This document shows, one piece after another, positions 25,197 to 50,761 of a stretch of 64,000 nt of DNA. The stretch spans positions 248,001 to 312,000 of the forward strand of contig NZ_PVEO01000003.1 in assembly GCF_002973595.1 (NCBI RefSeq). Reading direction: 5' to 3'. The position numbers and the translations under genes are program-made. Under the pieces are notes generated by a model that worked only from the letters and a program-made list of their open reading frames with translations, was not told where the DNA came from and searched no databases. Numbering within the stretch: the first letter of the stretch is position 1; each line of letters opens with the position of its first letter. Source of the DNA: Jejuia pallidilutea. GTDB lineage: Bacteria; Bacteroidota; Bacteroidia; Flavobacteriales; Flavobacteriaceae.

Positions 25197-25332
25197 ACCA
25201 CAACATTTAGTTTTCCTTTAACTTTATTTTTTTTGTACACACTCTTAAAATATTAACAAAATAAGGGGTTTTTGTGGTTTTAATAATAAAACTATACTTT
25301 TTTTGTAATGTATGTTTTTTGTTGCGGTAAAA
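25197..25332 (+). promoter_or_regulatory. PUL control region 1 (upstream of susC)
   Basis: Holds two blocks also found upstream of the other two PUL units: ACCACAACA at 25197-25205 and TGTATGTTTTTTGTTGCGG followed by TAAAA at 25309-25332. Between them is AATAAGGGGTTTTT (25260-25273). The second block ends 60 bases before the susC ATG. Function as operator/promoter is inferred from conservation. Confidence 0.65.
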
Positions 25333-25391
25333 AATATGTAATTCATAAATAATGTACATAATTTTAACCAAACTCTAAAACTAAACTCAAT

Positions 25392-28300
25392 ATGAGACAA
25401 AAACTCTTTAAAATGCTAATGCTTTTATGCTTTTCCTATGCAAGTGGGCAAAACATAGAAATTAGTGGAAATGTACAAGACAATAGCGGTTTTCCAATTC
25501 CAGGTGTAAACGTTATTGTTAAAAACACTACCAAAGGTGCTGTTACAGATTTTGATGGAAATTTTACCATCGTAGATGTCCCAACAGGATCTATTTTAGT
25601 GTTTAGTTATATTGGTTACGTAACTAAAGAGGTTACAGTAAACAATAGTGACAAATTAACAGTTACAATGGAAGAAGATTTAGCAAAGCTAGATGAAGTT
25701 GTTGTAATTGGGTATGGCGCCCAGAAAAAGAAAGAAGTAACGGGTGCTGTAAGTGTAGTTTCAAGCGAAACTATAGAAGCTCTAAAACCAACCCGTGTAG
25801 AACAAGCACTTCAGGGTCAAGTAGCGGGTGTTAACATTACATCGCAATCGGGTTCTCCTGGTGGTAACACAACCATTAGTATTCGTGGAGTTTCCACAAA
25901 CGGAGACAGCAGACCTTTAATTCTTGTAGATGGTAACGTTATTGAAGATTTAAGCGTTATTAACCCAAATGATATTGCCAGCGTTAACGTACTTAAAGAT
26001 GCAACTGCCGGTATATATGGTGTTCGTGCTGCAAACGGGGTTATTTTAATTACTACCAAAACAGGTAGAAAGGAACAACCGTTAACTATTGAATACGATA
26101 TGTACGTTGGGTTCCAAGAAACAACAAGAAAAATTCCTGTATTGAATGCCTCAGAATATGGTGCTTTGGTTAACGAAGCTTTTGCTGCTGGTGGCGAAAC
26201 ACCACCGTTTAGCGATTTATCACAATTAGGTGTAGGAACCGATTGGCAAGATGAAGTATTTGAAAAAGCCCCTATAATTAATCATGGTATTACATTTAAA
26301 GGCGGAAATGAAAAATCTACATACGCCTTTAATAGTTCTTTTATAACGCAAGACGGTATTGTGGGCGGTTCAAAATCAAATTTCACACGTTTTACTCAGC
26401 GTGCCAGTTATAATGTAGATTTATTAGATAATTTAAAATTTACATCAGGCTTGTTTTTAACAAGATCTAGTAAGCGAAATTTAGTTGAATCTGCTTTAGG
26501 TTCTGTACTTTTTAACGCTTTAAACATGGCACCTACCATTCCAGTTATAGATGAAGAGGGTAGATTCACCATCGCAGAAGGTTTAGGTAACGAAGTTATA
26601 AACCCTATTGCTCAAACAGTAAATACAAACGATTTAACTAAAACTTTACGGCTAAGTGGTAATGCGGGCTTAGGGTATACTTTTTTAGACCATTTTACAG
26701 CACAAGCTAACATTCAGTTTAATTATTCTGAAGTAGATGGCTATGTGTACAGACCTATTCAAAATTACGGAAGTGGTAAAGTATTTAATGTTGATAGAAG
26801 CGAAGTAGTTGAAAGATTAGATTACTACAGAGACTATACGTTTGATGCTTTTGTTAAATACGAAAATTCATTTAATGATACTCACAATGTTAAAGCGCTA
26901 TTAGGTACCTCTGTATTTAGAACTAAAGGTGTTTTCACAGGATTGAGAGGTTTTGATGTTGATACTACAGCTCCAAACATCGATAATGCCGATGAGGTTG
27001 AAGATATAAACCAAGCTAGAGGTTTCGACCCAAGGTTCGATTCTCGTCTACTATCATACTTTACTAGATTACAATACGATTATAAAGGCAAATATCTATT
27101 TTCAGCTGTAATTCGTCGTGATGGTTCTACAAAGTTCGGTCCTGAAAACAGGTTTGGTTATTTCCCTTCTGGTTCTATAGGATGGGTGGCATCAGACGAA
27201 GATTTTCTCTCAGGAAGTAATACGCTTAATTTCTTAAAACTAAGAGCATCTTATGGTATTTTAGGTAACGACAGAATTAGAGATTTTGGATTTATATCGT
27301 TACTTAATGGTGAAGGTACCTACGTATTTAACAACGAACTAGCATTTGGTTTAGGAACAGGAGCTGTGTCTAACCCAGAAATTAGATGGGAAAAACAAAA
27401 AACACTAAACATAGGTTTTGATATGCGACTATTTAATAATAAGGTTGATATTACTGCCGATTATTTCCAAAAAAGAACTGAAGATTTATTAGTGGTACCT
27501 CAAGTATCTGGATTGTTAGGTGTTGGTGCTCCTGGTGCTTCTGCACCAACAGTTAATGCTGGTATTGTAGACAATAAAGGTATTGAATTCGCCATAGGAT
27601 ATTCAGATAATATAAGCGACGATTTTAAGTTTAGTATTAAATATAATGTTACTGCAATTCAAAACGAAGTTATCTCAGTAAGTGGTGATGGCGATTTTAT
27701 AGCAGGTGGCTCTTTTGGTGTTGGTCAAGACCCACCAGCAAGAATGGAAGCTGGTTTTCCTATAGGGTACTTTAGAGGTTTTAAAACCAATGGTATATAC
27801 CAAAACCAAGCTCAAGTTGATGCAAGCCCTACAATTAATGATAGAGTACAACCAGGAGACTTAATATTTGTAGATACCGATGGTGATGGGGATATAGACG
27901 ATGATGATAGGGTAAATATTGGAGACCCAATACCAGACGCTACAATGGGACTTAATATTTCTTTCGATTATAAAGGTTTCGATTTTGCCGCTTATGCCTT
28001 TGCATCAGTTGGTAACGAGATAGTACGTAACTACGAAAGAAACCAAAACTTAACTAACAGACCAAGATACTTTTTAGACCGTTGGACGGGTGAAGGTTCT
28101 ACAAATTCAGATCCTAGAGTAACAACAGGTGCTAACTCTAATATATTATTTTCAGATTATTTTGTAGAAGACGGTTCTTTTATCAGATTACAAAATATAC
28201 AGTTAGGATATACATTTGGAGAAGAAGTTTTCGAGAATTCCAAAATAAGTAAATTACGTTTATACGTAACTGCAAGTAACTTATTCACATTAACCGAATA

Positions 28301-28412
28301 TAGAGGTTACGATCCAACGGCATCAAGTGGCGATCCCATTGGCGGCGGTATCGACCAAGGTTTTTACCCTAACCCAAAAACATTCTTATTCGGTTTAAAC
28401 TTAAAACTATAA
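25392..28412 (+). CDS. SusC-like TonB-dependent outer-membrane transporter
   Basis: Imports glucan oligosaccharides through the outer membrane using TonB energy. The 1006 residues comprise a signal peptide (about 1-20), a carboxypeptidase-D-regulatory-like domain (about 22-105, VKNTTKGAVTDFDGNFTI), a plug (about 115-225, beginning DEVVVIGYGAQKKKEVTGAV, with LVDGNVIEDL and VLKDATAGIYGVRAANGVI) and a 22-strand-type barrel ending FLFGLNLKL. Full-length. Eleven bases upstream of susD, the universal SusC/D pairing. It is the only SusC in the window. Substrate is inferred from the linked beta-1,3-glucan enzymes. Confidence 0.93.
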   Translation: MRQKLFKMLMLLCFSYASGQNIEISGNVQDNSGFPIPGVNVIVKNTTKGAVTDFDGNFTIVDVPTGSILVFSYIGYVTKEVTVNNSDKLTVTMEEDLAKLDEVVVIGYGAQKKKEVTGAVSVVSSETIEALKPTRVEQALQGQVAGVNITSQSGSPGGNTTISIRGVSTNGDSRPLILVDGNVIEDLSVINPNDIASVNVLKDATAGIYGVRAANGVILITTKTGRKEQPLTIEYDMYVGFQETTRKIPVLNASEYGALVNEAFAAGGETPPFSDLSQLGVGTDWQDEVFEKAPIINHGITFKGGNEKSTYAFNSSFITQDGIVGGSKSNFTRFTQRASYNVDLLDNLKFTSGLFLTRSSKRNLVESALGSVLFNALNMAPTIPVIDEEGRFTIAEGLGNEVINPIAQTVNTNDLTKTLRLSGNAGLGYTFLDHFTAQANIQFNYSEVDGYVYRPIQNYGSGKVFNVDRSEVVERLDYYRDYTFDAFVKYENSFNDTHNVKALLGTSVFRTKGVFTGLRGFDVDTTAPNIDNADEVEDINQARGFDPRFDSRLLSYFTRLQYDYKGKYLFSAVIRRDGSTKFGPENRFGYFPSGSIGWVASDEDFLSGSNTLNFLKLRASYGILGNDRIRDFGFISLLNGEGTYVFNNELAFGLGTGAVSNPEIRWEKQKTLNIGFDMRLFNNKVDITADYFQKRTEDLLVVPQVSGLLGVGAPGASAPTVNAGIVDNKGIEFAIGYSDNISDDFKFSIKYNVTAIQNEVISVSGDGDFIAGGSFGVGQDPPARMEAGFPIGYFRGFKTNGIYQNQAQVDASPTINDRVQPGDLIFVDTDGDGDIDDDDRVNIGDPIPDATMGLNISFDYKGFDFAAYAFASVGNEIVRNYERNQNLTNRPRYFLDRWTGEGSTNSDPRVTTGANSNILFSDYFVEDGSFIRLQNIQLGYTFGEEVFENSKISKLRLYVTASNLFTLTEYRGYDPTASSGDPIGGGIDQGFYPNPKTFLFGLNLKL

Positions 28413-28423
28413 AAAAGCTAGAT

Positions 28424-29881
28424 ATGAAAAATATATATAACAAAAACATACTGCTTATACTACTGGCATTAATGCTTTCTTGTAGCGACGATTTTATTGA
28501 AGTAGCATCGCAAGATGAAAACTCAGAAGAATTCTTTAATTCAGAAGCAGATTATCAAAAAGCCTTAATTGGGGCGTACGATTTATTACAATCAACCTAT
28601 TTGAATGTAATGCTAGGAGAAATAGCCTCAGACAATACTTTGGCTGGTGGCGAAAGTGCTACTGATGTACCGGGAATACAAGAAGTAGACGATATGGTAC
28701 ATACACCACTAAACGCCCAACTAAGAGACATTTGGAACTGGATGTTTGCCGGTGTAAATAGAGCCAACTTTATTTTAGAATTTCAGGATAAAACAGATTT
28801 TTCTGGTAAAGAAGGTGTAATAGCACAAGCAAGATTTTTAAGAGCTTACTATTATTTTGAACTGGTAAAGTGGTTTGGAGACGTACCACTAGCTGTAGAT
28901 AAGCGCATTCAATTTGGTGAGCAATTCTCTTTAGAAAGAACATCTAAAGGACAGATATACGCACAAATGGAAGAAGATCTAGTATTTGCAAGTGCAAACC
29001 TACCCTACGTTCAAAATGAAACAGGACGAATTACTAAAGGTGCTGCACAGGCATTGTTAGGTAAAGTATACTTGTACCAAGAAAAATTTAGTGAAGCTGC
29101 AACTGTACTAGAAGATCTTATTAACAATGGTCCGTATGCCTTATTAACAGACTATAGTACTATGTTTGAAAATGATAATGAAAACAACATAGAATCTGTT
29201 TTTGAAGTACAATACACAGATAAGGAAGGTGCTGGCTTTGGTTGTTTACAATGTAGTGAAGGTAATGTAGCTGTTGGTTTTAACGGTATTAGAAATTATT
29301 CTGGTCCTGTTTTCGACTCAGGTTTTAGTTTTAACGTACCAACACAAGAAGTTGTTGATGCCTTTGAAGAAGGCGATATTAGATTGGATACTGCAATTCT
29401 TGATATTGATGCTTGGGCCGAAGCCAATAATGCATCATTCTCCACAGGATACGAACACACAGGATACTTCAACAGAAAATATATTGCTAGAAAAGGCGAT
29501 TTAAATACTGGTGATGCAAACCTTACAAACCCTAACAACTATAGAGCAATTCGTTTTGCCGACGTATTGTTAATGGCAGCAGAAGCCCTAAACAGAGGGG
29601 GTATAAGCGATACTAGAGCACTAACCTATTTAAATAGGGTAAGAACTAGAGCAACATTAGATGCTTTAGATGTTACAGGTACAGAACTTACAAATGCAAT
29701 TTACCAAGAAAGACGCGTAGAATTAGTGGGCGAAGGCCACCGTTTCTTCGATTTAGTAAGAACAGGAAGAGCTGCTCAGGAAATTAACGGATTTGTTGCA
29801 GGCAAACACGAGGTTTTTCCAATTCCTTTAATAGAAATAGAATTGGCAGGTAACATTTGGGAACAAAATCCAGGATATTAA
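28424..29881 (+). CDS. SusD/RagB-like glycan-binding lipoprotein
   Basis: The surface lid of the SusC transporter. The 485 residues begin with a lipoprotein signal (LALMLSC, Cys20) followed by the acidic surface-export stretch SDDFIEVASQDENSEEFF. TPR-type helices follow (ARFLRAYYYFELVKWFGDVPLA, KGAAQALLGKVYLYQEKFSEAA), and the C-terminal SusD motif RADVLLMAAEALNR-like RFADVLLMAAEALNRGG and ERRVELVGEGHRFFDLVRTGRA is intact. Twelve bases separate it from the next lipoprotein gene. Confidence 0.93.
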   Translation: MKNIYNKNILLILLALMLSCSDDFIEVASQDENSEEFFNSEADYQKALIGAYDLLQSTYLNVMLGEIASDNTLAGGESATDVPGIQEVDDMVHTPLNAQLRDIWNWMFAGVNRANFILEFQDKTDFSGKEGVIAQARFLRAYYYFELVKWFGDVPLAVDKRIQFGEQFSLERTSKGQIYAQMEEDLVFASANLPYVQNETGRITKGAAQALLGKVYLYQEKFSEAATVLEDLINNGPYALLTDYSTMFENDNENNIESVFEVQYTDKEGAGFGCLQCSEGNVAVGFNGIRNYSGPVFDSGFSFNVPTQEVVDAFEEGDIRLDTAILDIDAWAEANNASFSTGYEHTGYFNRKYIARKGDLNTGDANLTNPNNYRAIRFADVLLMAAEALNRGGISDTRALTYLNRVRTRATLDALDVTGTELTNAIYQERRVELVGEGHRFFDLVRTGRAAQEINGFVAGKHEVFPIPLIEIELAGNIWEQNPGY

Positions 29882-32767: not shown

Positions 32768-32811
32768 ATTGAGGTTAAACACCATTTAGTTTTATTCTAT
32801 TATTGGCATAA

Positions 32812-32852
32812 AAAAGCACCTTTAAAACCTATATTGTTTTAAAGGTGCTTTT
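32812..32852 (+). terminator. Strong terminator of the susCD unit
   Basis: Perfect 17-base arms AAAAGCACCTTTAAAAC (32812-32828) and GTTTTAAAGGTGCTTTT (32836-32852), 7-base loop, T-rich downstream. It separates PUL unit 1 from unit 2. Confidence 0.9.
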
Positions 32853-32946
32853 GTTTTACAAAGCGCTAAGTTAATGATGCTAAGGTGTATAGTGTATTCT
32901 TAGAGGCATTGTATAGCACAACATTAAAAAGTATTACCTATACATT

Positions 32947-33086
32947 ACCACAACACACAAGTAAAAATAGTGCATATATCATAAAAGTATTGAGAAATAA
33001 GTAACTTACTAAAACACCGTATTTATTAGAGTCTCATCAAAAAACAACTGTTTTTTTTGCTATGTATGTTTTTTGTTGCGGTAAAA
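32947..33086 (+). promoter_or_regulatory. PUL control region 2 (upstream of the glycosidase-barrel gene)
   Basis: ACCACAACA at 32947-32955 and TGTATGTTTTTTGTTGCGG then TAAAA at 33063-33086; the 24-base second block is identical to that upstream of susC. Spacing between blocks (116) is nearly that of region 1 (112). It lies 137 bases before the ATG. The rest of the 456-base gap (32768-33223) holds only the terminator and no supported gene. Confidence 0.65.
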
Positions 33087-33223
33087 TTTATCAATTTAAT
33101 AATGTTATGCAGTAAGTTTACAAAACCACACTTGTTTTGTTTGCAAAATAACATTACAAGAAAAACATCCATTATTCGGGTGGAAAAACAACTAAAACAA
33201 TAGACCAATTAATTATTAATGTT

Positions 33224-36200
33224 ATGAGAAGAAACATTCTACAATTAGTCTTTATTCTATTTTCTATCTCACTTTTTGCTCAGGTAAAAAAAGTAAGGGT
33301 CGAAAAATCTAATGAAGGCATGTACCTCACCGTTGATGGTGAAAAATTTATGATTAATGGTATGAATTGGGATTATGTCCCAATAGGCACCAATGTTGTA
33401 AACGCAGAATTCTACAAAAAATCCGATGACATTATTAAAGCAGGATTAGACGCAGAAATGGCGTTACTACAAAACATGAATGTAAATGTTATACGCCAAT
33501 ATACTGGTGTACCAGCAAAATGGATAAAATACATATACGAGAAGTATGGTATTTGGACGATGTTAAACGATTCCTTTGGGCGTTACGGCTTAACTATAGA
33601 TGGTGTTTGGACACCAATAACAGATTATAAAGACGAGCGTACTAAAGAATTATTACTATCGGAAATCACTAAAATGGTAACCGATTATAAAAATACACCA
33701 GGTATACTCTTATATCTTATTGGTAACGAAAACAACTATGGTTTGTTTTGGCAAGGTGCAGAAACCGAAGATTTTCCCGATGGGCAAGAAAAAATTAATG
33801 CAGTTGGTGAGTTAAGAGGAAGACCAATGTATAAGTTAATGAATGAAGCTGCTCTAGCCATGAAAGCTATAGATAAAAACCATCCAGTAGCTATTTGTAA
33901 CGGTGATGTTTTGTTCATAGACATTATTGCAGACGAATGTAAAGATGTAGACATCTACGGCACCAATGCATATCGTGGAGAATCGTTTGGAGACATGTTT
34001 CAAGTGGTAAAAGATAAGCTCAATATGCCTATAATGTTCACCGAGTTTGGATCAGACGCTTACAATGCTATCGAGAATGCCGAAGACCAAAAAATGCAAG
34101 CACATTACCTAGTTAAAAACTGGCAAGAAATATATGAGAACGCTGCAGGACTTGGAAAAGTAGGCAATTCTATTGGAGGATTTACATTCCAGTTTTCTGA
34201 TGGATGGTGGAAAGCGGGTTTTGACGATAGAAAAGATGCCGATACACAACAAACAGAATCTACTTGGAATGCTGGCGGCTATAAAATAGACGAAGCATAC
34301 CCTGGCGCAAACAATATGAACGAAGAATGGTTTGGTATTTGTGCTAAAGGACCAACAAACCCAAGAGGTTTATATACTTTATACCCAAGAGCAGCTTATT
34401 ATGCATTAAAAGACGCCCACAAATTAAACCCTTTTGAAGACGGTGTAGATTTAGAATTTGTGCAAAATTACTTTAGAAACATTAATTTAATGGATGCTGT
34501 TTTGCGCGCAAGAGGCGATAAGGCCTCATTGGGAGCTACTAAAAACGGAACAGTAAGGCTTAGTAACTTAAGAGCGCAATTCACAACATTTAATACCGGA
34601 GGAAGCTTACTTACAACACCAGAAACCCCAAACCCAGACGAAGAATCCTTTCCTAATCAAATAGGATTCGATCACATGCAATCCTATTTTATTGGAGTTG
34701 AAGGAAGTCCTGCCCCTAATATGAAAGCAGAAGTTAACTTTAATGTGCTTGGTAATGTAGCACAAAACCCTATTGATGAGATTTTTTATGAGAACGTAGG
34801 ACGACCAATTACTGTTAACAATGCAGAAGGCGAGGAAATAGTTATAACAGACAATAACAGAGTACGCGTTTACAATGCTGAATTCGAGTGGAATACTAAA
34901 GTAGCCGATGTTAGAGGGTTTTATAGAACAGGACACTACCATTGGGGCTACGAGGGAGACTTCTTCGGGTTATATCCAGAGGCTAATTACGGCCCTAATC
35001 TAGATATTTACAATGGTGAAATATTAGGAATGGAAATTGATGGAAAAGGTGCCTTAAAAGGACTTAAAGCAGCGTTTGGTCCGCAGTTATGGTGGGGCGC
35101 AAACCCAACAGTATTACTAAAATACAGAACAAACTTTAAGCATTGGGATATTACAGGTATTTACCACAGAGACTTAGATACTAGTTTAGAATTTGATGAT
35201 AATGGACGACGTGTACTAGATCAAAATCAAGTTCGAAGTGGTGTAATTCCACCATGGCCAACAGAACGCGCTACTATAGCCTTAGAAAGAGAGTTTGGAG
35301 ATTTTGGGCTGTCTTTAGGTGGTATTTGGGGAGGTAGACCTCTTAATGGTAGTACTTTTCAAGATGTTACTGGCGAATCTGGAAACTATGTGGTTTATCA
35401 AGACAAAATAAATGCTGATGATAATTGGGGAGGAAAAGCCAAAATAACATATGAAGGCGGAAAATTTAATTGGTACGCTCAAGCGGCTTACATGGGTTTA
35501 GTAGCCAATGGTGGTGCAGATGCCACGAGAACATTTACAGGATGGAAACTTAAAGATTCTGGTAGTGGTAACCAAACCAATATACTTACTGGTTTTACTT
35601 ATAGTGTTGGCGATTGGCAGATAGCACCAAACTTTTTATGGCAAAAACCTTTAGTAGACCCTATACCAAACGATGTATCTGCTCCTGGCAGACTAAGAAA
35701 TTTTATAGACGACCCATTTGCTGTAAGAGGCAATAGAGAAACCACCGCAGGTGAATTGCTTTTAACTTTCGATCCAACTCCGGGCTCTTGGTTCTACGAG
35801 TGGGATAACGATCGTTCTGAGGATGCAAAAATTGCCTTTAATCTAGGCTTTGTATATAGGCACCACCCAACAGCACAAGATGCTGCTATTGGTTTTTTAG
35901 CAAATCGTACATTTTTTGCATTTCCACAATCTGCTCCAGCGCAAGACCTTTGGGAAGTTAGTTCTAGAATTGTATCTAAAGTAGGTCCCGAACTAGGTAT
36001 TATTGGAAATATCTACGGTGGTAATGCACAAGCAAATGGCGATAGCGATAGAACTATTGAACGTTTTGGGGGCGATGTTAGAATGATTTATAAACAATGG
36101 AAATTGGAATATGGTTTTAAAGTAAACGATTGGGGACCTTTTGATTACCACCGCGATTTTAACTTAACCTTTCCTGTTCAAAACATGATAGATATTTCTA

Positions 36201-36415
36201 CAACCATTGGAAAACCAGACTGGTTTATACTTCCAGATACAAAAATAGGTATTCGTGGTACTTGGCGTTCTTTAAATGAATTTTCTCCCAGATATTCTCC
36301 TAATGCTGTTCCACCAAATACATTTCCTGCTGTACCAACTATAAGTCCTGTTGGATTTGATAACGGAAGTGAATGGGAGATTAGAACATACGTACACATC
36401 AACATTGGAAAATAA
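33224..36415 (+). CDS. Clan GH-A glycosidase fused to a putative outer-membrane beta-barrel
   Basis: A 1063-residue exported protein with signal peptide ending LFAQ. Residues about 25-405 form a (beta/alpha)8 glycosidase of clan GH-A: GMNWDYVPIG, VIRQYTGVPAKW, IGNENN with probable acid/base Glu169, and FTEFGSDAY with probable nucleophile Glu274, then GGFTFQFSDGWWK. This resembles GH2/GH5-type barrels; the CAZy family is not assigned. From about 440 to 1063 the pattern changes to alternating aromatic strands and polar loops (AFGPQLWWGANPTVLLKYRT, ITYEGGKFNWYAQAAYMG, WEIRTYVHINIGK at the end), as in outer-membrane barrels. No lipobox. First gene of unit 2, inside the glucan locus. The barrel is inferred from pattern only; a large beta-sandwich array is the alternative. 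Confidence 0.7.
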   Translation: MRRNILQLVFILFSISLFAQVKKVRVEKSNEGMYLTVDGEKFMINGMNWDYVPIGTNVVNAEFYKKSDDIIKAGLDAEMALLQNMNVNVIRQYTGVPAKWIKYIYEKYGIWTMLNDSFGRYGLTIDGVWTPITDYKDERTKELLLSEITKMVTDYKNTPGILLYLIGNENNYGLFWQGAETEDFPDGQEKINAVGELRGRPMYKLMNEAALAMKAIDKNHPVAICNGDVLFIDIIADECKDVDIYGTNAYRGESFGDMFQVVKDKLNMPIMFTEFGSDAYNAIENAEDQKMQAHYLVKNWQEIYENAAGLGKVGNSIGGFTFQFSDGWWKAGFDDRKDADTQQTESTWNAGGYKIDEAYPGANNMNEEWFGICAKGPTNPRGLYTLYPRAAYYALKDAHKLNPFEDGVDLEFVQNYFRNINLMDAVLRARGDKASLGATKNGTVRLSNLRAQFTTFNTGGSLLTTPETPNPDEESFPNQIGFDHMQSYFIGVEGSPAPNMKAEVNFNVLGNVAQNPIDEIFYENVGRPITVNNAEGEEIVITDNNRVRVYNAEFEWNTKVADVRGFYRTGHYHWGYEGDFFGLYPEANYGPNLDIYNGEILGMEIDGKGALKGLKAAFGPQLWWGANPTVLLKYRTNFKHWDITGIYHRDLDTSLEFDDNGRRVLDQNQVRSGVIPPWPTERATIALEREFGDFGLSLGGIWGGRPLNGSTFQDVTGESGNYVVYQDKINADDNWGGKAKITYEGGKFNWYAQAAYMGLVANGGADATRTFTGWKLKDSGSGNQTNILTGFTYSVGDWQIAPNFLWQKPLVDPIPNDVSAPGRLRNFIDDPFAVRGNRETTAGELLLTFDPTPGSWFYEWDNDRSEDAKIAFNLGFVYRHHPTAQDAAIGFLANRTFFAFPQSAPAQDLWEVSSRIVSKVGPELGIIGNIYGGNAQANGDSDRTIERFGGDVRMIYKQWKLEYGFKVNDWGPFDYHRDFNLTFPVQNMIDISTTIGKPDWFILPDTKIGIRGTWRSLNEFSPRYSPNAVPPNTFPAVPTISPVGFDNGSEWEIRTYVHINIGK

Positions 36416-36429
36416 AAAAACAGATTAAT

Positions 36430-37851
36430 ATGAAAAATATAAAATTAACATATACAAAAATGACAATCCTTTTAGGATGCATTTTTATAACAATAGCCAG
36501 TTGCGAGAGAGAGCTTTCAGATGAAGCTGTTTTTGCAACGTTTCCAACAGCGCCTGAAGTGTTTAACGACAGTCCTGTAGGTTTGGGTACAGATTTTTAT
36601 TTCCCATATATCAATTCTAAAGCAACAGCTTGGTCTGTAGATGAAAAAGAAAGTTATGAAGGTTCTGCTTCAATGCGTTTTGATGTACCAAATGCTAATG
36701 ATCCCGAAGGAAGTTTTGCAGGCGCAATTTTTAGAATTGATGGTGAAGGTTCTGGCAGAAATCTAACAGATTACGATGCGCTAACATTTTGGGCAAAAGC
36801 CACACAATCTGTTACCATCGGTGAAATAGGTTTTGGCGAAGATTTTGGCGAAAATAAATATGTAGTTGGTAGAAAGGCTATAGATTTAACAACAGCATGG
36901 AAAAAATATATTATACCTATTCCAGATCCATCAAAACTCATTCAAGAACGTGGTTTGTTGCGTTATTCAACAGGATCACTGTTGGGTTCTGGTTATACAT
37001 TTTGGTTAGACGAAGTTAGATATGAGAAATTAGGAACCCTTGCTCAGCCAAAACCCAAAATACTTAATGGTGTTGATGTTGAAGAAACCACATTTATTGG
37101 AACACAAATAAACTTAAGTGAACGCGGACTCACACAAACGTTTAATTTACCAAACGGTGTTAATCAAGAAGTAACCGCGGCACCTTCATATTTTACTTTT
37201 GAGTCATCAAATCCAGAAGTAGCTATTGTAAACGAATTAGGTGTTGTTACGGTTTTAGATGCTGGTAGTGCAACTATTACCGCAACAATTGCTGGTGTTA
37301 AAGCTGCTGGTTCCCTAACACTTCAATCTTTAGGAAACTTTGCAGAAGCACCTGTGCCAACTAGAGATCCTGCCAACGTTATTTCAATTTTTAGTGATGC
37401 TTATACCAACGTACCAGTAGACTATTATAACGGATTTTTTACTCCAGATGGACAAACAACTCAAGGAGGAGAACCTCCATTAACTTTAGGCTCTGGTCAA
37501 GTTATCAATTATACGCAACTTAATTTTGTAGGTATTGGCACATTTTTAAACGTATCTTCTATAGATGCTTCACAAATGACACACCTGCATGTAGATATTA
37601 ATGTGCAAGAGGCGGTAGAATCGGGCGACTATATTACACTTCAATTATTAAACTCAGTTGGTAATAACGAAACATCCGGTAGCGTAAGAATTACAGATAA
37701 CCAACTACAATCTAATCAATGGGTAAGTCTCGATGTGCCCTTAAACGATTTTGGATTAGCCAATAGAGATAAATTAGGGCTATTGTTCTTCATTTCAGAT
37801 AATACCATATCTAATATTTATGTAGATAATATTTACTACTACAAAGAATAG
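36430..37851 (+). CDS. Multi-module glycan-binding lipoprotein (no catalytic domain seen)
   Basis: The 473 residues start with a lipobox TIASC (Cys25). Residues about 40-200 look like a jelly-roll binding domain (FYFPYINSKATAWSV, SMRFDVP, LTFWAKATQSVTIGEIGF, FWLDEVRYEKLG). A Big_2-type Ig domain follows at about 215-300 (TFESSNPEVAIVNELGVVTV, GSATITATIAGVKA). The last ~165 residues (about 306-473, APVPTRDPANVISIFSDAY to IYVDNIYYYKE) form a module also found in the protein at 50839. Fourteen bases after the glycosidase-barrel gene and 29 before GH16. Probably surface-exposed; binding role inferred. Confidence 0.75.
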   Translation: MKNIKLTYTKMTILLGCIFITIASCERELSDEAVFATFPTAPEVFNDSPVGLGTDFYFPYINSKATAWSVDEKESYEGSASMRFDVPNANDPEGSFAGAIFRIDGEGSGRNLTDYDALTFWAKATQSVTIGEIGFGEDFGENKYVVGRKAIDLTTAWKKYIIPIPDPSKLIQERGLLRYSTGSLLGSGYTFWLDEVRYEKLGTLAQPKPKILNGVDVEETTFIGTQINLSERGLTQTFNLPNGVNQEVTAAPSYFTFESSNPEVAIVNELGVVTVLDAGSATITATIAGVKAAGSLTLQSLGNFAEAPVPTRDPANVISIFSDAYTNVPVDYYNGFFTPDGQTTQGGEPPLTLGSGQVINYTQLNFVGIGTFLNVSSIDASQMTHLHVDINVQEAVESGDYITLQLLNSVGNNETSGSVRITDNQLQSNQWVSLDVPLNDFGLANRDKLGLLFFISDNTISNIYVDNIYYYKE

Positions 37852-37880: not shown

Positions 37881-38729
37881 ATGAATAAAATAACCGCATA
37901 TAAATTTAAGCTACCAGCCATAGCGTTGCCATCGTTATTGTTAGTGCTGGCTTTTGTAGCAGCTAGTTGTTCTACAGACCAAACACAAACCGTAGCAACT
38001 TTTAATAAGTTATCAATGGCAGACGAGTTTGATGTTGATGGTGCACCAAATAGCTCTATTTGGAATTTCGACATAGGTACAGGACAAAACGGATGGGGAA
38101 ATAACGAATTGCAATATTATACAAATCGTCCAGAAAATGTCGTGGTACAAAATGGGGTTTTAATTATTACCGCAAGAGAAGAAAATTTTAATGGATCTGC
38201 TTACACATCTGCTAGGTTGTTAACTAAAGGTAAGTTTCAACAGCAATATGGGCGCTGGGAAGCACGTATAAGATTGCCTTATGGCAAAGGTATTTGGCCT
38301 GCTTTCTGGTTGTTGGGAGACGATAAAAATGGTACTGAAATTTGGCCAGAAATAGGAGAAATAGATATTATGGAGTATTTGGGTGATGAGCCAACCAGAG
38401 CTTTTGGTACGGTACATGGCCCTGGCTATTCCGCTGGAGAATCTATAAGTAAATCTTATCAATTACAAAATGATAGGTTCGATACAGGATTTCATGTTTT
38501 TGGCATAGAATGGGGTCCAGAATACATTAATTTTTACATAAACGATGTATTATATAACCAAATTACGCCAGAAGATGTGCCAGGAGAATGGGTGTTTGAT
38601 GACGATTTCTACATTATATTAAATATGGCCGTTGGTGGTACCTTACCAGGGGCTCCTAATGCAGAAACTACATTTCCACAGCGTATGCTTGTAGATTATG
38701 TAAGAGTATACGAAATGAACAAAAACTAA
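37881..38729 (+). CDS. GH16 endo-beta-1,3-glucanase (laminarinase), lipoprotein
   Basis: Cuts internal beta-1,3 (or mixed 1,3/1,4) glucan bonds with retention. The 282 residues have a lipobox VAASC (Cys30) and a single GH16 domain: MADEFDVDGAPNSSIWNFD, NNELQYYTNRPENV, ARLLTKGKFQQQYGRWEAR, and the catalytic motif EIDIMEYLG with Glu160 (nucleophile), Asp162 and Glu165 (acid/base). The bulge Met in EIDIME marks the laminarinase-type branch of the family. Likely tethered on the cell surface, feeding SusCD. No CBM attached; neighbours supply binding modules. Confidence 0.93.
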   Translation: MNKITAYKFKLPAIALPSLLLVLAFVAASCSTDQTQTVATFNKLSMADEFDVDGAPNSSIWNFDIGTGQNGWGNNELQYYTNRPENVVVQNGVLIITAREENFNGSAYTSARLLTKGKFQQQYGRWEARIRLPYGKGIWPAFWLLGDDKNGTEIWPEIGEIDIMEYLGDEPTRAFGTVHGPGYSAGESISKSYQLQNDRFDTGFHVFGIEWGPEYINFYINDVLYNQITPEDVPGEWVFDDDFYIILNMAVGGTLPGAPNAETTFPQRMLVDYVRVYEMNKN

Positions 38730-38741
38730 ATAAACATTAAT

Positions 38742-41480
38742 ATGAAAAAAATAATTCAAACATTAAAATACATATCAGTTTTGGTATTGGCGTTGTCCTT
38801 TACAAACTGTGAAGACGATGACGTAGTATTACCATCAGTTGAAGCTGGTTTTACCTATACTTTAAATATAGATACAGGAACCGTAACATTTATTAACATA
38901 TCAGAAAATGCTAATAATTATGAATGGGATTTTGGCGATGGTACTACATCTACAGAAATTAACCCAGTTAAAATATATAGTAACGGCACCTACACAGTGG
39001 TATTAAAGGCCAAAAATGTTTCTGGAGCATCAGATACTTTTGAAAGCGAGATTACCATTTTAATACCAGAAATAGCTACACTACCTATTTCATTTGATGG
39101 TGAAAATACAACTTACGATGCTACTACATTTAACGGAGCAGCTTTTACAGTAGTAGATAATCCAGATGTTTCTGGAGCTAATGCTGTGGCTTCAAAAGTT
39201 GGTGAAATCACAAACTCTGGTGCACAGTTCGAAGGCTTTTATTTCGATTTAGGAGCACCATTAGATCTATCAACCCAAAAATCTGTAAAAGCCTTAGTGT
39301 GGTCTGATAAAGCATTAGATGTTTTATTAAAATTAGAAGAAGGTACAGGTGCCGATGTTGAAACCACAGCTAGCCATGGTGGAACAGGCTGGGAAGAAGT
39401 TTATTTTACTTTTAATAGTGCTGCTAGCTATAATAGATTTACCATGTTTTTTGATCCTTCAGGCACCACATCAGGTAAATTTTATATAGATGCTATTTCA
39501 CAAATAGCAACAGATGCTATTCCGTGTACCGAAACCAATTTGGAACTACCTGTAGATTTTGATTGTAATGGTATAGACTATGCTGCAAAAATTGTTGGCA
39601 ATGTGTCTTTTGAAGTTATTGATAATCCAGAGTTATCAGGTATAAATGCTGAAGTATCAAAAGTTGGAAAAATAGTAAACGTTGGAGAAAATTGGGAAAA
39701 TGCATTCTTTAATTTTGACACGGCAATAGATTTAACTTCAAATAAAGGTATTAGGTTTAAGTTATTTTCAGATCAAGCTTTACCTATCAAAGTAAAATTA
39801 GAAGATGGTACCGAAGCTCCAATAGAGGTAGATGTAAACCATACAGGATCTGGATGGGAGGAACTTACATTTACGTTCAACTCCTCTGCGTCTTACAACG
39901 ATATGGTTGTTTTTATAGACGGACCAGGAACAGCAGCAGGTACGTTTTATATAGACGATATAGAACAAGTATTAGGAGATACAGCAGAACCTTGTGAGGC
40001 TGAAACTATGCAATCGTTAAGTGCTGCAGATTTTAACCTAACATTTATGTTAGATCCAACATCTAGTATTATTGAGGATGGTGGTGATTTTACATGGATT
40101 GATAACCCTGATTTTAATAACGATGTAAATACGTCTTGTAAAGTGGGTCAAATAACCAAATTAGGAAACAACCCTTGGGACAACAACCAAATAGATTTAG
40201 ATGCAAAGTTAGATTTTAATGCAAACGAAGGCTTAAAAATCAAAGTATGGTCTTCTAGACCAAATACAGAGGTTAGAATTAAACTAGAGGAAATAGGAGC
40301 GCCAAATAATAATGTAGAGAAGTTTTTAACAACATCTGTAACCAGTGCTTGGGAAGAACTAACATTTGCATTTGATCCCGCAGACAGCGGAAAATACAAT
40401 AAAATTGTAATTTTCTTTGATTTAAATGCTAACAATACAGACACCTATTATTTTGATGACTTAGCATTATACGGCTCTAGCAATGGAGGCGGTACAGGTG
40501 GTGCTTTTGATGATGGCTTATTAACCAATGGCGATTTTGAAAATGGTTCTACTGCATGGATTGGTAACGCTGTTGATGTTCGTACTGAAGGCGACAACTC
40601 TTTTAACTTTGCCGATGTTACAGTTGCAGGTAACGCTTTTGATGTAAACTTAAGTCAAGTTGTTGAAATAGTTCCAGGAGCAACATATACACTTTCTTTT
40701 GAGGCTTCATCAAATGGTAACAGAACTATGTTAGCTGGAATTGGTTTAAATCAAGATCCGTGGAGCAATAATGTTTCAGAAGTTAATTTAACCACTCAAA
40801 CACAATCCTTTTCTTTAGAATTAAAAGCAACAGATTTAAATACTTCAGCAGACTTTGGTGGTGCTAATAGTCGTGTAATATTCGATATGGGCGCTGCAAC
40901 AGGAGTTGTAGTTATAGATAACGTATCGCTTACATGTTCAGATTGCGACGGTGGTGGTAACACTGGCGGTGGAGGTACCGGAGGAGGAACTACAAGTGGA
41001 TTGGTAACAAATGGAGACTTTGAAACTGGCGATGAATCTTCGTGGATTTTATTCCAAAACGGAGGAACCGCTACGTTAGATAATGCCATAAGTAATGGTG
41101 GTTCATGGTCTGGAAAACTTGCAACAAATGGTCCTAGTAACCCTGCTTTTAAGCAAGAAAGAATAGGGGCTGGAACAGTAAATGCTGGAGATACAGTTAC
41201 CATTTCGTTCGATCATATTGGAGCTATTGGTGGTGAAGGCGGTGTGTTTAATGTTATACTTTTTGTAGAAGGTGCTGGAGGTTCTGTGCCCATTACACAT
41301 GTTTTTAGCCCAACACCAATACTATCAGATAGTTGGACAACCTTTACAGGAACGTTCACTATACCAAATGGAACAGATACTTCCGAAGGAATTTCATTCC
41401 TAATAGAAGCCGTTTGTGGTGGCGCAACAGGTTGTAGCGTAACAGCAAATATTGATAATGTTTCTGCAACACTTAATTAA
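38742..41480 (+). CDS. 912-residue lipoprotein with PKD and repeated binding modules
   Basis: No catalytic domain is seen. Lipobox SFTNC (Cys23), then PKD (about 32-110, YEWDFGDGTTSTEINPVKIY), then three copies of an unassigned ~140-residue module at about 114-258, 269-411 and 428-580. Shared features are DNP after a hydrophobic strand, SKVG or SCKVG, WEEL/WEEVxFTFN and YIDxI. A CBM4-like module (about 589-735, FDDGLLTNGDFENGS) and a second, more distant one (about 753-912, GLVTNGDFETG) follow, joined by Gly-rich linkers. It is preceded by GH16 after 12 bases. Probably a long surface tether that holds glucan near the enzymes. Confidence 0.8.
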   Translation: MKKIIQTLKYISVLVLALSFTNCEDDDVVLPSVEAGFTYTLNIDTGTVTFINISENANNYEWDFGDGTTSTEINPVKIYSNGTYTVVLKAKNVSGASDTFESEITILIPEIATLPISFDGENTTYDATTFNGAAFTVVDNPDVSGANAVASKVGEITNSGAQFEGFYFDLGAPLDLSTQKSVKALVWSDKALDVLLKLEEGTGADVETTASHGGTGWEEVYFTFNSAASYNRFTMFFDPSGTTSGKFYIDAISQIATDAIPCTETNLELPVDFDCNGIDYAAKIVGNVSFEVIDNPELSGINAEVSKVGKIVNVGENWENAFFNFDTAIDLTSNKGIRFKLFSDQALPIKVKLEDGTEAPIEVDVNHTGSGWEELTFTFNSSASYNDMVVFIDGPGTAAGTFYIDDIEQVLGDTAEPCEAETMQSLSAADFNLTFMLDPTSSIIEDGGDFTWIDNPDFNNDVNTSCKVGQITKLGNNPWDNNQIDLDAKLDFNANEGLKIKVWSSRPNTEVRIKLEEIGAPNNNVEKFLTTSVTSAWEELTFAFDPADSGKYNKIVIFFDLNANNTDTYYFDDLALYGSSNGGGTGGAFDDGLLTNGDFENGSTAWIGNAVDVRTEGDNSFNFADVTVAGNAFDVNLSQVVEIVPGATYTLSFEASSNGNRTMLAGIGLNQDPWSNNVSEVNLTTQTQSFSLELKATDLNTSADFGGANSRVIFDMGAATGVVVIDNVSLTCSDCDGGGNTGGGGTGGGTTSGLVTNGDFETGDESSWILFQNGGTATLDNAISNGGSWSGKLATNGPSNPAFKQERIGAGTVNAGDTVTISFDHIGAIGGEGGVFNVILFVEGAGGSVPITHVFSPTPILSDSWTTFTGTFTIPNGTDTSEGISFLIEAVCGGATGCSVTANIDNVSATLN

Positions 41481-41573: not shown

Positions 41574-44500
41574 ATGACACTAAACGAAGCGCCTAAAGTA
41601 ACAAACCTTATGAGCAAAATAAAAGGAGAACAGGTAACTTTTGAAAACGAATCTTATTACAAGATTTCTAATAGCGATAATATGCGCCCATTTTTTATGA
41701 GCATTGTAAGCGACTCTAACCATTGGATGTTTATATCCAGTAATGGCGGATTAACAGCTGGCAGAAAAAATGCAGAATCATCGCTATTCCCTTATTACAC
41801 AGACGATAAAATTACCGAAATGGCCGAAACTACAGGAAGTAAGGCTATTTTTAAAATTAATGTAGCAGGAAAAATACATATTTGGGAACCGTTTTCAATA
41901 CGCCAAATGGGGATATACAACACCCAAACAAACCTGTATAAAAACCGATACGGTAACAAGGTGGTTTTTGAAGAAATTAATCTTGATTTGGGCGTAACGT
42001 TCAGGTACCAGTGGAATTCCACTAACCAATATGGATTTGTAAAAAAATCAACATTAATAAATAACTCAGATTCTAAAATAGATATTACAGTTTTAGATGG
42101 TTTACAAAATATATTGCCTGCTTCTGTAACTTCCGATTTACAAAATAGCAGAAGTAATTTAGTAGATGCTTATAAAAAAAGTGAGTTGCAAGCTGAGGTT
42201 GGTTTGGGTATTTACGCATTAAGCGCTGTTATTGTAGATAAAGCAGAACCTAGCGAAGCTCTAAAAGCAAATGTTGTTTGGTCTTTAGGATTAGATAATC
42301 CTACATACCTATTGTCTGCTACACAGTTAGATAATTTTAGAAAGGGTAAAGACATCCATCAAGAAGTTGATGTAAAAGCAGAAAAAGGCGCCTATTTTAT
42401 ATCACAGCATTTACATTTGGAGGCACAAGCAAATAAGGAATGGCGCTTTGTTGCAAACGTAAACCAATCAATTTCAGATATTGTTAAAATTTCAGAAAGC
42501 ATTAAAAATGAAGATAATCTTATCAATCTTGTTCAGAATGATATCGATTTAGGTACCAAAAACTTAATTGCTTTAACGGGCGCATCTGATGGTTTACAGC
42601 TTACCGACGATCCACTTATAAACACCAGGCATTTTTCAAATACGCTTTTCAATATCATGCGTGGTGGTATTTTTGATGATGGTTACACCATTGAAAAAGC
42701 AGACTTTGTAACCTACCTATCCAAAGCAAACAAACAGCTTTGTAAATTAAAACAAGATGTTTTAAACGATGTTCCTGATGTTTTTAACCTTCATTATCTA
42801 AAAAACATAGCAGAACGCGATACAAATCAGGATTTTAAACGCTTGTGTTTTGAATATTTACCTTTAAAATTTAGTAGAAGACATGGCGACCCAAGCAGAC
42901 CTTGGAATAGGTTCTCTATAAATACCAGAAGTGAAGTTGATGGTTCTAAAATTTTAGATTATGAAGGCAATTGGCGCGATATTTTTCAAAACTGGGAAGC
43001 CTTAGCCCTATCTCATCCAGAGTTTATTGAAGGGATGATTCATAAGTTTTTAAATGCTACAACCTTTGAAGGTTATAACCCGTACCGTGTTACCAAAGAT
43101 GGTTTTGATTGGGAGATAATCGAAGAAAACGATCCATGGTCTTACATTGGCTATTGGGGCGATCACCAGATTATTTACTTGCTAAAGTTCCTAGAAATTA
43201 TTGAAAACCACTACCCTAGCGCTTTAGAAAAACGTTTTAATGAAGATGTATTTGTATATGCCAATGTGCCTTACAAAATAAAAAGCTACGAGGCTACCTT
43301 ACAAAATCCAAAAGATACTATTGATTTCGACCATAAGCTAGACCAAATAATAAACCAAAAAAGAACGGTGTTAGGTGCAGACGGTGCCTTGTTAGAAGAC
43401 CAAAAAGCTAATATTTATAAAGTTAATTTAATTGAAAAATTGTTAGCTACAGTACTTTCTAAAGTATCAAACTTTATTCCCGAAGGTGGAATTTGGTTAA
43501 ACACACAACGCCCAGAATGGAACGATGCCAACAACGCATTAGTAGGTAACGGTGTGTCTATGGTAACGCTGTATTATTTATATCGTTTTTTAAGCTTTTT
43601 CGAAACCGTATTATCTAAATCTAACATTAAAACTGTTCCCGTTTCTAAAGAATTAATGGCGTTTTTTAATGCTAGTGTTTCAACGCTTCAAGCTAATGCC
43701 AATATACTATCAGCAAAAATATCAAATAAAGATCGCAAAATGGTACTTGATGGTTTAGGAAAAGCAGGAAGTAATTATAGAGAAACTATTTATAATAAAG
43801 GGTTTTCGTGCGAAAAAGAAACCTTATCACTTGACGATGTTTCTAGTTTCATAGAGGTTACAAAATCGTATTTAGAGCATAGTATTGATGCAAATAAGCG
43901 TAGCGATAATATGTATCATGCCTATAATTTAATGACGGTTGAAAATGATGAAGAGGTATCTATATCGTACTTGCCAGAAATGCTAGAAGGTCAAGTAGCA
44001 GTATTGAGTTCGGGCTACCTCTCTCCTACCCAAGCGCTTCAGCTTTTAGACGGATTAAAACACAGTGCACTATTTAGAGAAGATCAATACAGCTATATTT
44101 TATACCCAAATAAGGAGTTACCACGATTTGATAAAAAGAATACTATTCCATCGGAGAAAGTAGCGCAATCTAAACTTCTAAAAAAACTAGTTGCCAATGG
44201 TAATAAACAAGTTATAGAACAAGATATAAAAGGCAACTATCATTTTAATAGCAACTTTAATAATGCAAAAAGTTTATCAGAGGCATTAAACAATTTAGAT
44301 GAAGCCTATAAACCTTTAGTTACAGATGAAAAAGAAAACCTACTTCAAATTTTTGAAGATATTTTCGATCATAAATCCTTTACAGGACGCTCTGGAACAT
44401 TCTTTGGTTACGAAGGGTTAGGCTCTATTTATTGGCACATGGTTTCTAAGTTATTATTAGCAGTACAAGAAAACTGTTGGTTGGCCATAAATACTAATGA

Positions 44501-45020
44501 AACGCCAGAAGTTATTGGCAAACTTTTAGACCATTACTACGAAATAAATGCTGGTATTGGTGTACATAAATCACCAGAATTGTATGGTGCATTTCCAACC
44601 GATCCGTACTCGCATACGCCCGCTACAAAAGGTGCACAACAACCAGGAATGACGGGGCAAGTAAAAGAAGATATATTAAGCAGGTTTGGAGAATTAGGTG
44701 TATTTGTTAACAACGGAAAATTATGTTTTAAACCAAGTTTATTACAAACCAAAGAGTTTTTGCAAACAGCATCAACCTTTAGTTTTACAAATCTTAATAA
44801 AGAGAAGCAAACCATAGCATTACAAGAAAATTCTTTGTGTTTTACCTACTGCCAAGTGCCTGTTGTTTATACGCTTTCAAACAACGAAAAAATAGAAGTG
44901 TTTTTTAACAACAATAAACACATGGAGTTTAATGAGATGCATCTTAATGTAGAGGTTTCAAAATCTATTTTTGAACGCAAAGGAGACGTAAATCATATCA
45001 TAGTTTCAATAAAAAAATAG
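41574..45020 (+). CDS. GH149-like beta-1,3-glucan phosphorylase
   Basis: Likely splits beta-1,3-gluco-oligosaccharides with phosphate to give glucose 1-phosphate. No signal peptide, so cytoplasmic. The 1148 residues agree with the unusual length of GH149 enzymes (about 1100). Order is as in the phosphorylase superfamily: N-terminal beta-sandwich (about 20-310, MFISSNGGLTAGRKN), helical linker, (alpha/alpha)6 barrel (about 370-1020) with RHGDPSRPWNRFSI, DPWSYIGYWGDHQIIYLLKF and RPEWNDANNALVG. Asp651 in EWND aligns with the catalytic Asp of GH94 WND motifs. A C-terminal beta domain ends the protein. GH94 and GH161 are alternatives, but those are usually shorter. Next to GH17, GH30 and MFS genes. 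Confidence 0.75.
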   Translation: MTLNEAPKVTNLMSKIKGEQVTFENESYYKISNSDNMRPFFMSIVSDSNHWMFISSNGGLTAGRKNAESSLFPYYTDDKITEMAETTGSKAIFKINVAGKIHIWEPFSIRQMGIYNTQTNLYKNRYGNKVVFEEINLDLGVTFRYQWNSTNQYGFVKKSTLINNSDSKIDITVLDGLQNILPASVTSDLQNSRSNLVDAYKKSELQAEVGLGIYALSAVIVDKAEPSEALKANVVWSLGLDNPTYLLSATQLDNFRKGKDIHQEVDVKAEKGAYFISQHLHLEAQANKEWRFVANVNQSISDIVKISESIKNEDNLINLVQNDIDLGTKNLIALTGASDGLQLTDDPLINTRHFSNTLFNIMRGGIFDDGYTIEKADFVTYLSKANKQLCKLKQDVLNDVPDVFNLHYLKNIAERDTNQDFKRLCFEYLPLKFSRRHGDPSRPWNRFSINTRSEVDGSKILDYEGNWRDIFQNWEALALSHPEFIEGMIHKFLNATTFEGYNPYRVTKDGFDWEIIEENDPWSYIGYWGDHQIIYLLKFLEIIENHYPSALEKRFNEDVFVYANVPYKIKSYEATLQNPKDTIDFDHKLDQIINQKRTVLGADGALLEDQKANIYKVNLIEKLLATVLSKVSNFIPEGGIWLNTQRPEWNDANNALVGNGVSMVTLYYLYRFLSFFETVLSKSNIKTVPVSKELMAFFNASVSTLQANANILSAKISNKDRKMVLDGLGKAGSNYRETIYNKGFSCEKETLSLDDVSSFIEVTKSYLEHSIDANKRSDNMYHAYNLMTVENDEEVSISYLPEMLEGQVAVLSSGYLSPTQALQLLDGLKHSALFREDQYSYILYPNKELPRFDKKNTIPSEKVAQSKLLKKLVANGNKQVIEQDIKGNYHFNSNFNNAKSLSEALNNLDEAYKPLVTDEKENLLQIFEDIFDHKSFTGRSGTFFGYEGLGSIYWHMVSKLLLAVQENCWLAINTNETPEVIGKLLDHYYEINAGIGVHKSPELYGAFPTDPYSHTPATKGAQQPGMTGQVKEDILSRFGELGVFVNNGKLCFKPSLLQTKEFLQTASTFSFTNLNKEKQTIALQENSLCFTYCQVPVVYTLSNNEKIEVFFNNNKHMEFNEMHLNVEVSKSIFERKGDVNHIIVSIKK

Positions 45021-50612: not shown

Positions 50613-50761
50613 ACCACAACATAAGCAATTTTTACTTTTTAGACTTCATGTTTTAAAGCATACACAAAACTGTTAAAACGTTATTATAACAAGGGGTTTT
50701 ATAGTGATTTCATAAAAAATATAGTGTTTTTTTAGGATGTATGTTTTTTGTAGGGGTAAAA
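50613..50761 (+). promoter_or_regulatory. PUL control region 3 (upstream of the type IX binding protein)
   Basis: ACCACAACA at 50613-50621 and TGTATGTTTTTTGTAGGGG then TAAAA at 50738-50761; the second block differs from the other two at two bases. AACAAGGGGTTTT at 50688-50700 matches the string in region 1. The block lies 77 bases before the ATG. The 462-base gap (50377-50838) has no supported gene. Confidence 0.65.

Follow-up and report, generated by a model that had tools for sequence, protein, structure and literature searches.

We examined a gene at positions 33224-36415 of a 64,000-nucleotide stretch of the Jejuia pallidilutea genome (contig NZ_PVEO01000003.1; hereafter the window), whose product joins a glycosidase to a predicted outer-membrane beta-barrel, an assignment well supported by structural models. 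The enzyme-barrel fusion is widespread in related Bacteroidota, leads a conserved beta-1,3-glucan operon and is strongly linked to the lipoprotein gene that follows it. Import through the pore is our best, though unproven, reading: we judge it possible, if not quite probable, that the fusion is an enzyme-gated outer-membrane channel that together with a surface lipoprotein imports laminarin-type beta-1,3-glucan. Tethering of the enzyme is the main rival. The open reading frame (ORF) is intact, encodes 1063 amino acids (aa) and gives a single match in its own 4.11-Mb genome. No glycosidase fused to an outer-membrane barrel was found in the literature searched, which took in few subscription papers or preprints.

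The enzyme half and the predicted barrel

An earlier sequence-only reading of the window had placed residues 25-405 in glycoside hydrolase (GH) clan A, with catalytic glutamates at 169 and 274, and this was borne out by the PF02836 match, by AlphaFold2 and by conservation. The model shows residues 24-405 as alternating strands and helices matching TIM-barrel enzymes, and N168-E169-N170 and E274-F275-G276 are invariant in a shallow 75-row alignment (67-81% identity); the TIM barrel and two catalytic glutamates of clan GH-A are both present. PF02836, the GH2 TIM-barrel model, matched residues 75-283 at 23.2 bits, just above its cut-off of 21, which by that measure would make the domain a GH2. 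It was the sole Pfam match at E <= 0.01 in the whole protein, and no NCBIfam family matched the whole protein. The sandwich domains that we take normally to precede the TIM barrel in GH2 were not seen by AlphaFold2 or by Pfam at E <= 0.01; all that precedes the TIM barrel here is the signal peptide and some short strands.

The best structural neighbours of the enzyme half in VIA-align were LaGH157 (Z 28.9, root-mean-square deviation (rmsd) 2.9 over 309 positions) and GH158(Pro) (Z 27.4, rmsd 7.9 over 305), and members of GH157, GH158, GH2 and GH5 scored alike (Z 28.9 to ~26). By sequence, GH158(Pro) matched at E 0.013 only, with its TEFG motif aligned. Likeness to GH157 and GH158 thus lies in their place as top structural neighbours and in the TEFG motif; against it stand the identity of 18-20%, the nearly equal Z of GH2 and GH5 and the lack of a membrane barrel in GH157 and GH158. 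One GH158 structure entry is titled as an endo-laminarinase, and GH157 and GH158 entries as complexes with laminari-oligosaccharides; because of these titles and the content of the operon, we predict beta-1,3-glucan as the substrate. A search of PDB sequences with the full profile gave matches in the enzyme half and a chance match to an antibody, and nothing in the barrel part. Comparison of the fusion protein with the GH149 protein of the same operon revealed no relation.

The C-terminal part had been proposed from sequence to be an outer-membrane barrel, and the models, the strand and loop patterns and the fold matches agree with this. AlphaFold2 gave a mean predicted local distance difference test score (pLDDT) of 76.3 and a predicted template modelling score (pTM) of 0.53 for the whole protein, and 73.9 and 0.74 for residues 437-1063 alone, with much the same strand series in both. 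DSSP assigned 30 strand segments to the barrel part of the whole-protein model, of which we took 24 as wall strands and six (529-532, 538-541, 711-718, 721-728, 889-891 and 897-899) as parts of loops; the count would be 26 if 711-718 and 721-728 belonged to the wall. Hydrophobicity alternation averaged 2.72 over the 24 strands, against 1.45 +/- 0.22 in within-strand shuffles (0 of 5000 as high), and was weak in three of them (444-460, 481-497 and 924-936). The first loop is 20 aa long and the second a 2-aa turn, and long loops follow the odd strands throughout, with averages of 23.8 aa after odd and 4.8 aa after even strands (p = 2e-4); the 26-strand reading leaves the sides unchanged (20.6 and 4.6 aa, p = 2e-4). 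In the models, then, the part has the even number of amphipathic antiparallel strands, the short turns on one side and the long loops on the other that characterise outer-membrane barrels.

The barrel was folded and searched separately, since VIA-align of the whole protein listed enzyme-half matches only. Foldseek was led by BtuB3G3 (E 3e-9), chitoporin, PfeA and FepA, and VIA-align by PapC/FimD usher pores (Z 14.5 to 12; PapC, rmsd 5.0 over 374), followed by porins, VDAC and TOM barrels. Usher pores are 24-stranded. The rows listed in both barrel-only searches are membrane barrels; a SusCD entry (5t3r_D) stood at Z 11.0 in the VIA-align list, where rank or absence is no proof of structural difference. 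Ushers and TonB-dependent transporters are thus the best listed structural neighbours, with ~10% identity; the fusion differs from them in lacking a plug match and in its N-terminal domain. The profile searches proposed earlier for this part placed it in no family: its own sequence matched nothing in Pfam at E <= 1, the 75 aligned barrel members brought up nine Pfam families with a best E of only 0.042, and neither the SusC model TIGR04056 nor the Plug domain PF07715 matched the fusion protein at E <= 0.01.

In known outer-membrane barrels the short turns are periplasmic. Because both ends of the barrel lie on the short-turn side, the enzyme would be periplasmic, at the pore exit, the loop pattern being the sole support for that side. 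The sequence-only reading had imagined cutting at a pore mouth or delivery straight through the pore; the predicted exit position would move the cutting away from the outer mouth.

The partner lipoprotein and the spread of the fusion

Within the window's own family, 128 of 397 genomes gave some match to the fusion, and in 79 a single open frame spanned residues 15-1006 or more, a count made from match rows in which one genome (G062) is cut by a contig end. A profile search found the barrel in 35 of 395 genomes sampled across the phylum, in frames of 1046-1087 aa except for fragments in G507 and G617 and a G588 copy in two pieces; no free-standing barrel was seen in this sample. From at least 586 confirmed relatives we kept the best 80 loci, which cover the query nearly end to end.

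The barrel is strongly linked to the lipoprotein. Residues 21-250 of the lipoprotein were matched at the next-gene place in 104 of 105 fused loci (those with >5.5 kb downstream), at a median distance of 3.19 kb from where the enzyme match starts, and in the sole exception (L138, genome G530) it lies elsewhere on the same contig. It was found in none of 10 informative loci that encode the enzyme alone, two further loci cut by contig ends (L155 and L166) having been left out. In searches of whole genomes, all 8 with the fusion had it and none of the 11 with the enzyme alone did (p = 1.3e-5 if genomes are independent); one of the 11, G712, has its enzyme at a contig end, and the barrel profile search gave no match there. 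Across the phylum, 30 of 296 genomes had the lipoprotein: 28 with the fusion, together with G514 (E 2.5e-22, 34% identity) and G622 (E 8e-5). Seven of the 35 barrel-match genomes are absent from these 30, and not all seven need have been in the sample of 296: in G701, G698 and G762 the lipoprotein is present locally (L135, L140 and L144), G507 and G617 have barrel fragments only, and the remaining two are G349 and G685. Since both are absent together in several lineages, which is the strongest sign, the barrel and the lipoprotein appear to act as one unit. The earlier expectation of a barrel without a SusD lid was therefore right in that the next gene is not susD, and incomplete in that a different lipoprotein goes with the barrel.

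The lipoprotein N-terminus contains C-E/D-R/D in 74 of 74 sequences and C-E/D-R-x-x-S/T-x-D/E (D, E, N or Q at x) in 67 of 74, a motif that we take to resemble the export signal of surface lipoproteins in this phylum. Its PDB sequence matches fall in the middle part only. Several relatives carry tandem copies of its C-terminal third, which gives the impression of an amplified glucan-binding repeat.

Enzyme-alone proteins (11 rows) are scattered over a maximum-likelihood tree built from 63 enzyme domains, whose starred branches require at least 7 switches of the label 'fused', with no direction given by the tree. The barrel remnants in G507 and G617 suggest losses. L150 (G258) carries stops near the end of its match and may be a decayed fusion. 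Read by eye, the N-termini of L150, L151, L152, L159 and L161 are plain signal peptides and those of L160, L162, L163 and L165 lipobox-like, with L164 unclear; in the lipobox-like forms it is as if a lipid anchor had replaced the barrel. That all such relatives have plain signal peptides, a view drawn from four, was given up when six more yielded the four lipobox-like starts. L152 (about 7138-8433, minus strand) has a GH16 domain in place of the barrel, joined to the glycosidase in a 692-aa frame. Of the enzyme-alone loci, L151 and L163 have a SusC-SusD pair upstream of the enzyme on its own strand, L152 and L160 have one ~10 kb and 19 kb upstream, respectively, and L150 and L162 have one on the opposite strand; in L164 there is just a distant SusC-like ORF and in L165 nothing close, and the contigs of L159 and L161 are short. 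The search reached farther here than in the fused loci, so that the two SusC/SusD rates are not comparable.

The glucan operon, its control block and SusC/SusD

The features of the window that bear on the fusion are collected in Table 1.

Table 1. Features of the window, with positions counted from its first nucleotide.
Feature	Position	Strand	Basis
Regulator: propeller / Y_Y_Y / LuxR-type	22347..25163	+	domain scan; match in 68/80 related loci
Control block upstream of susC	25298..25355	+	local alignment; exact core
SusC of preceding unit	25392..28412	+	TIGR04056, 849.7 bits
SusD of preceding unit	28424..29881	+	PF07980, PF14322
Same control block upstream of fusion gene	33052..33105	+	local alignment; exact core
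Signal peptide, residues 1-20, ends FAQ, without lipobox (by eye)	33224..33283	+	sequence; AlphaFold2 helix 2-17
Clan GH-A TIM-barrel glycosidase domain, residues 21-405	33284..34438	+	PF02836; AlphaFold2; structural neighbours LaGH157, GH158(Pro)
E169, predicted acid/base (GNEN)	33728..33730	+	invariant, 75 rows
E274, predicted nucleophile (TEFG)	34043..34045	+	invariant, 75 rows; aligned with TEFG of GH158(Pro)
Helical linker, residues 410-437	34451..34534	+	AlphaFold2; block pLDDT 94 and 85 (411-430), 54 (431-440)
Predicted outer-membrane beta-barrel, ~24 strands, residues 444-1060	34553..36403	+	AlphaFold2; amphipathicity, loop pattern; fold matches; no Pfam family
Partner lipoprotein (Big_2 domain), probably surface-exposed	36430..37851	+	lipobox, CERELSDE; linkage to barrel
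GH16 with lipobox (by eye), operon of the fusion gene	37881..38729	+	PF00722; N-terminus
PKD-CBM4_9 protein with lipobox (by eye)	38742..41480	+	domain scan; N-terminus
GH149 beta-1,3-glucan phosphorylase, no signal peptide seen	41574..45020	+	NF058639, 1815.8 bits
GH17-like protein with lipobox (by eye)	45031..46290	+	PF00332 27.5 bits, just under cut-off 28.2
GH30 with lipobox (by eye)	46354..47844	+	domain scan; N-terminus
MFS_2 / GPH-type sugar symporter	47873..49435	+	domain/family scans
GH17, no signal peptide seen	49450..50376	+	domain scan; N-terminus

That the fusion should recur in the same kind of locus had been suggested as a check, and it does. Among the best 80 loci, many of which end before the later operon genes, the window's neighbours were matched as follows: lipoprotein 78, GH16 76, regulator 68, GH149 59, GH17 57, GH30 35, SusC 24 and SusD 24. 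Loci from other families keep the order fusion, lipoprotein, GH16 and then, with gaps, GH149, GH17, GH30 and symporter in 18 of 19 cases, L138 having another gene order; the window's SusC and SusD found no match in any of the 19. The regulator has no kinase match and often stands directly before the fusion gene in related loci. At the end of the SusCD unit, 31883-32767 encodes a 294-aa lipobox protein without a Pfam or NCBIfam match, matched in 20 of the 80 loci. An inverted repeat with a T-rich tail between it and the fusion gene (32810-32857) looked terminator-like by eye and was set aside when a terminator scan returned 0 sites.

The claim that this glucan locus shares a control block with susC held up: the regions upstream of the two genes align over 58 columns with a local score of 63, against <= 37 in 500 shuffles, and both contain an identical 18-base core (at 25314 and 33068). 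With <= 2 mismatches allowed, the core occurs upstream of 11 of 122 related genes and, after a single shuffle of each region, of none of the 122, and in four of the 11 loci (L048, L062, L066 and L072) it has a different sequence context, so that the block appears only partly conserved among relatives. A third copy with 2 mismatches (50743-50760) precedes the ORF 50839-52161, perhaps another member of the regulon.

To survey SusC and SusD we ran profiles of our own on all ORFs of the 87 fused loci whose sequence extends >7 kb upstream and 9 kb downstream. Neither was found in 62 of the 87 within the fetched stretch, beyond which a more distant SusCD would be missed; SusD occurred somewhere in 24. 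The 62 loci from the best-80 set had SusC in 24, SusD in 23 and neither in 38, the 24 fused loci from other families had no SusC or SusD in the fetched stretch (0 of 24), and L153, from the window's own family, had both. At the level of whole genomes, the SusD model PF07980 matched nothing in 5 of 38 fused genomes (G444, G458, G530, G588 and G637), all drafts of 30-160 contigs with completeness 99-100%. The second SusD model, PF14322, matched in G588 and in none of the other four. SusC matches over the cut-off numbered one in G444 (borderline, 375.6 bits, on another contig), one in G530 and two in G588; G458 and G637 had no match to either SusD model and no SusC over the cut-off.

Possible roles of the fusion

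In our preferred reading, the barrel, without a recognisable plug, would span the outer membrane, and the lipoprotein would sit on its outer face as a glucan binder or lid. As the N-terminal domain, the glycosidase would lie on the periplasmic side of the pore and cut emerging chains, and cutting at the exit would trap the products and pull the flow inward. Trimming of the glucan, either outside or within the periplasm, would fall to the GH16, GH17 and GH30 lipoproteins; sugars would enter the cell through the symporter, and GH149 would phosphorolyse them there. We infer the place of every lipoprotein, the side of the enzyme, the transport itself and the beta-1,3-glucanase activity.

Known systems offer partial parallels. 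SusCD complexes and utilisomes for levan and dextran (PMC7618045), in the parts of that source consulted, bring together, as here, an outer-membrane barrel, a lipoprotein and a glycosidase of one operon for one glycan in Bacteroidota. They differ in that our enzyme is in the barrel chain and predicted to be periplasmic, that no plug or SusC model matches and that the lipoprotein is a Big_2 protein, not SusD. A Formosa protein, FORMB_24740, was described from a laminarin locus as combining a GH17 with a 'membrane spanning transport protein', a kind of fusion that its authors, in the sections consulted, did not know from other bacteria (PMC6246565). It resembles the present protein as a glycosidase-transport protein fusion in a laminarin locus, and differs in its GH17 domain and in a transporter that is not an outer-membrane barrel. 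We take that part to belong to the major facilitator superfamily of the inner membrane. Homologues were expected from sequence to sit under generic glycosidase names, which is probably right: the 'GH2 beta-glycosidase' of Muricauda laminarin loci (PMC13188888, whose consulted parts do not mention an outer-membrane barrel) is probably the fusion gene, as a contig cited there, SGIU01000001.1, is that of our locus L035. The 'GH0' of expressed laminarin loci, in the part of PMC10108472 consulted, may likewise be the fusion. GH17/GH16_3/GH149 loci without susCD described in PMC10811738 come from a Colwellia bin and were left out of the comparison.

Several observations weigh against import through the pore. 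The models are of moderate confidence and were built on the shallow alignment, and no means of closing so wide a pore is apparent. G514, where the profile search lists no barrel, has its distant lipoprotein match all the same, and the five genomes without a PF07980 match keep other receptor-like matches, which makes another import route possible. No more than 6 of 10 loci with the enzyme alone had a SusC-SusD pair in reach, after a longer search than in the fused loci, so that a swap of barrel for SusCD is not proven. The remaining points lend themselves to a different account, in which the barrel mainly tethers the enzyme, docking the lipoprotein, at the outer membrane while a nearby SusC-like pore imports. 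SusC is present in 25 of the 87 fused loci, and in the window SusC and SusD adjoin the fusion and share its control block, so that the fusion is not obviously their replacement. Other genomes have the enzyme without the barrel, with 5 plain, 4 lipobox-like and 1 unclear among the ten N-termini, and the seemingly lipid-anchored forms suggest that tethering matters by itself. We nevertheless consider the tethering account rather unlikely: a 24-strand barrel is costly where one lipid suffices, the 62 fused loci lack SusC and SusD in the fetched stretch, and G458 and G637 gave no SusD match and no SusC over the cut-off.

The lipid-anchored enzyme-alone forms could also be surface enzymes, as they would be if the barrel exported the N-terminal enzyme to the cell surface with helix 410-437 threading the pore. 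Type Va autotransporters consist of a signal peptide, a passenger, a helix and a C-terminal 12-strand barrel, and the fusion shows this order, with a helix before strand 1. Its ~24 strands instead of 12, ushers as the best full-length barrel matches and the strict tie to a separate lipoprotein, foreign to a type Va system, make such export of the enzyme improbable. Export of the glucan itself, trimmed by the enzyme on its way through the pore, has a precedent in Pel, where, in the parts of PMC12022489 consulted, a periplasmic hydrolase (PelA) works with an outer-membrane exporter (PelB), in separate chains and for export, not import. Here it is very improbable, for the operon appears to be a degradative one, with GH16, GH17 and GH30 enzymes, a symporter for sugars and a glucan phosphorylase, its control block is common with susC and the domain and family scans matched no polysaccharide synthase among the genes scanned. 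A C-terminal part of soluble beta structure, wrongly modelled as a barrel, would fit a mean pLDDT of only 74-76 and the missing family match; it is scarcely credible given that two models agree, that strand alternation exceeds 5000 of 5000 shuffles, that the loops alternate and that the barrel-only fold rows are membrane barrels. A soluble C-terminal part or the lack of a hydrophobic belt, named beforehand as grounds for rejecting the barrel, appeared in neither the AlphaFold2 structure nor the fold searches.

A broader proposal, which we offer as doubtful for now, is a hydrolase-coupled channel beside SusCD and plain porins, in which cutting at the periplasmic exit, not TonB, would drive net import under a surface lipoprotein lid, in many beta-glucan degraders and in some genomes as the sole dedicated route for glucan that can be recognised. 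With a fusion of this kind and its own lipoprotein spread across the phylum, glucan loci that lack SusCD would not have to be incomplete, and a census of susC and susD would miss a route. The fusion could also be used to test directly whether hydrolysis is able to drive import across the outer membrane through a pore.

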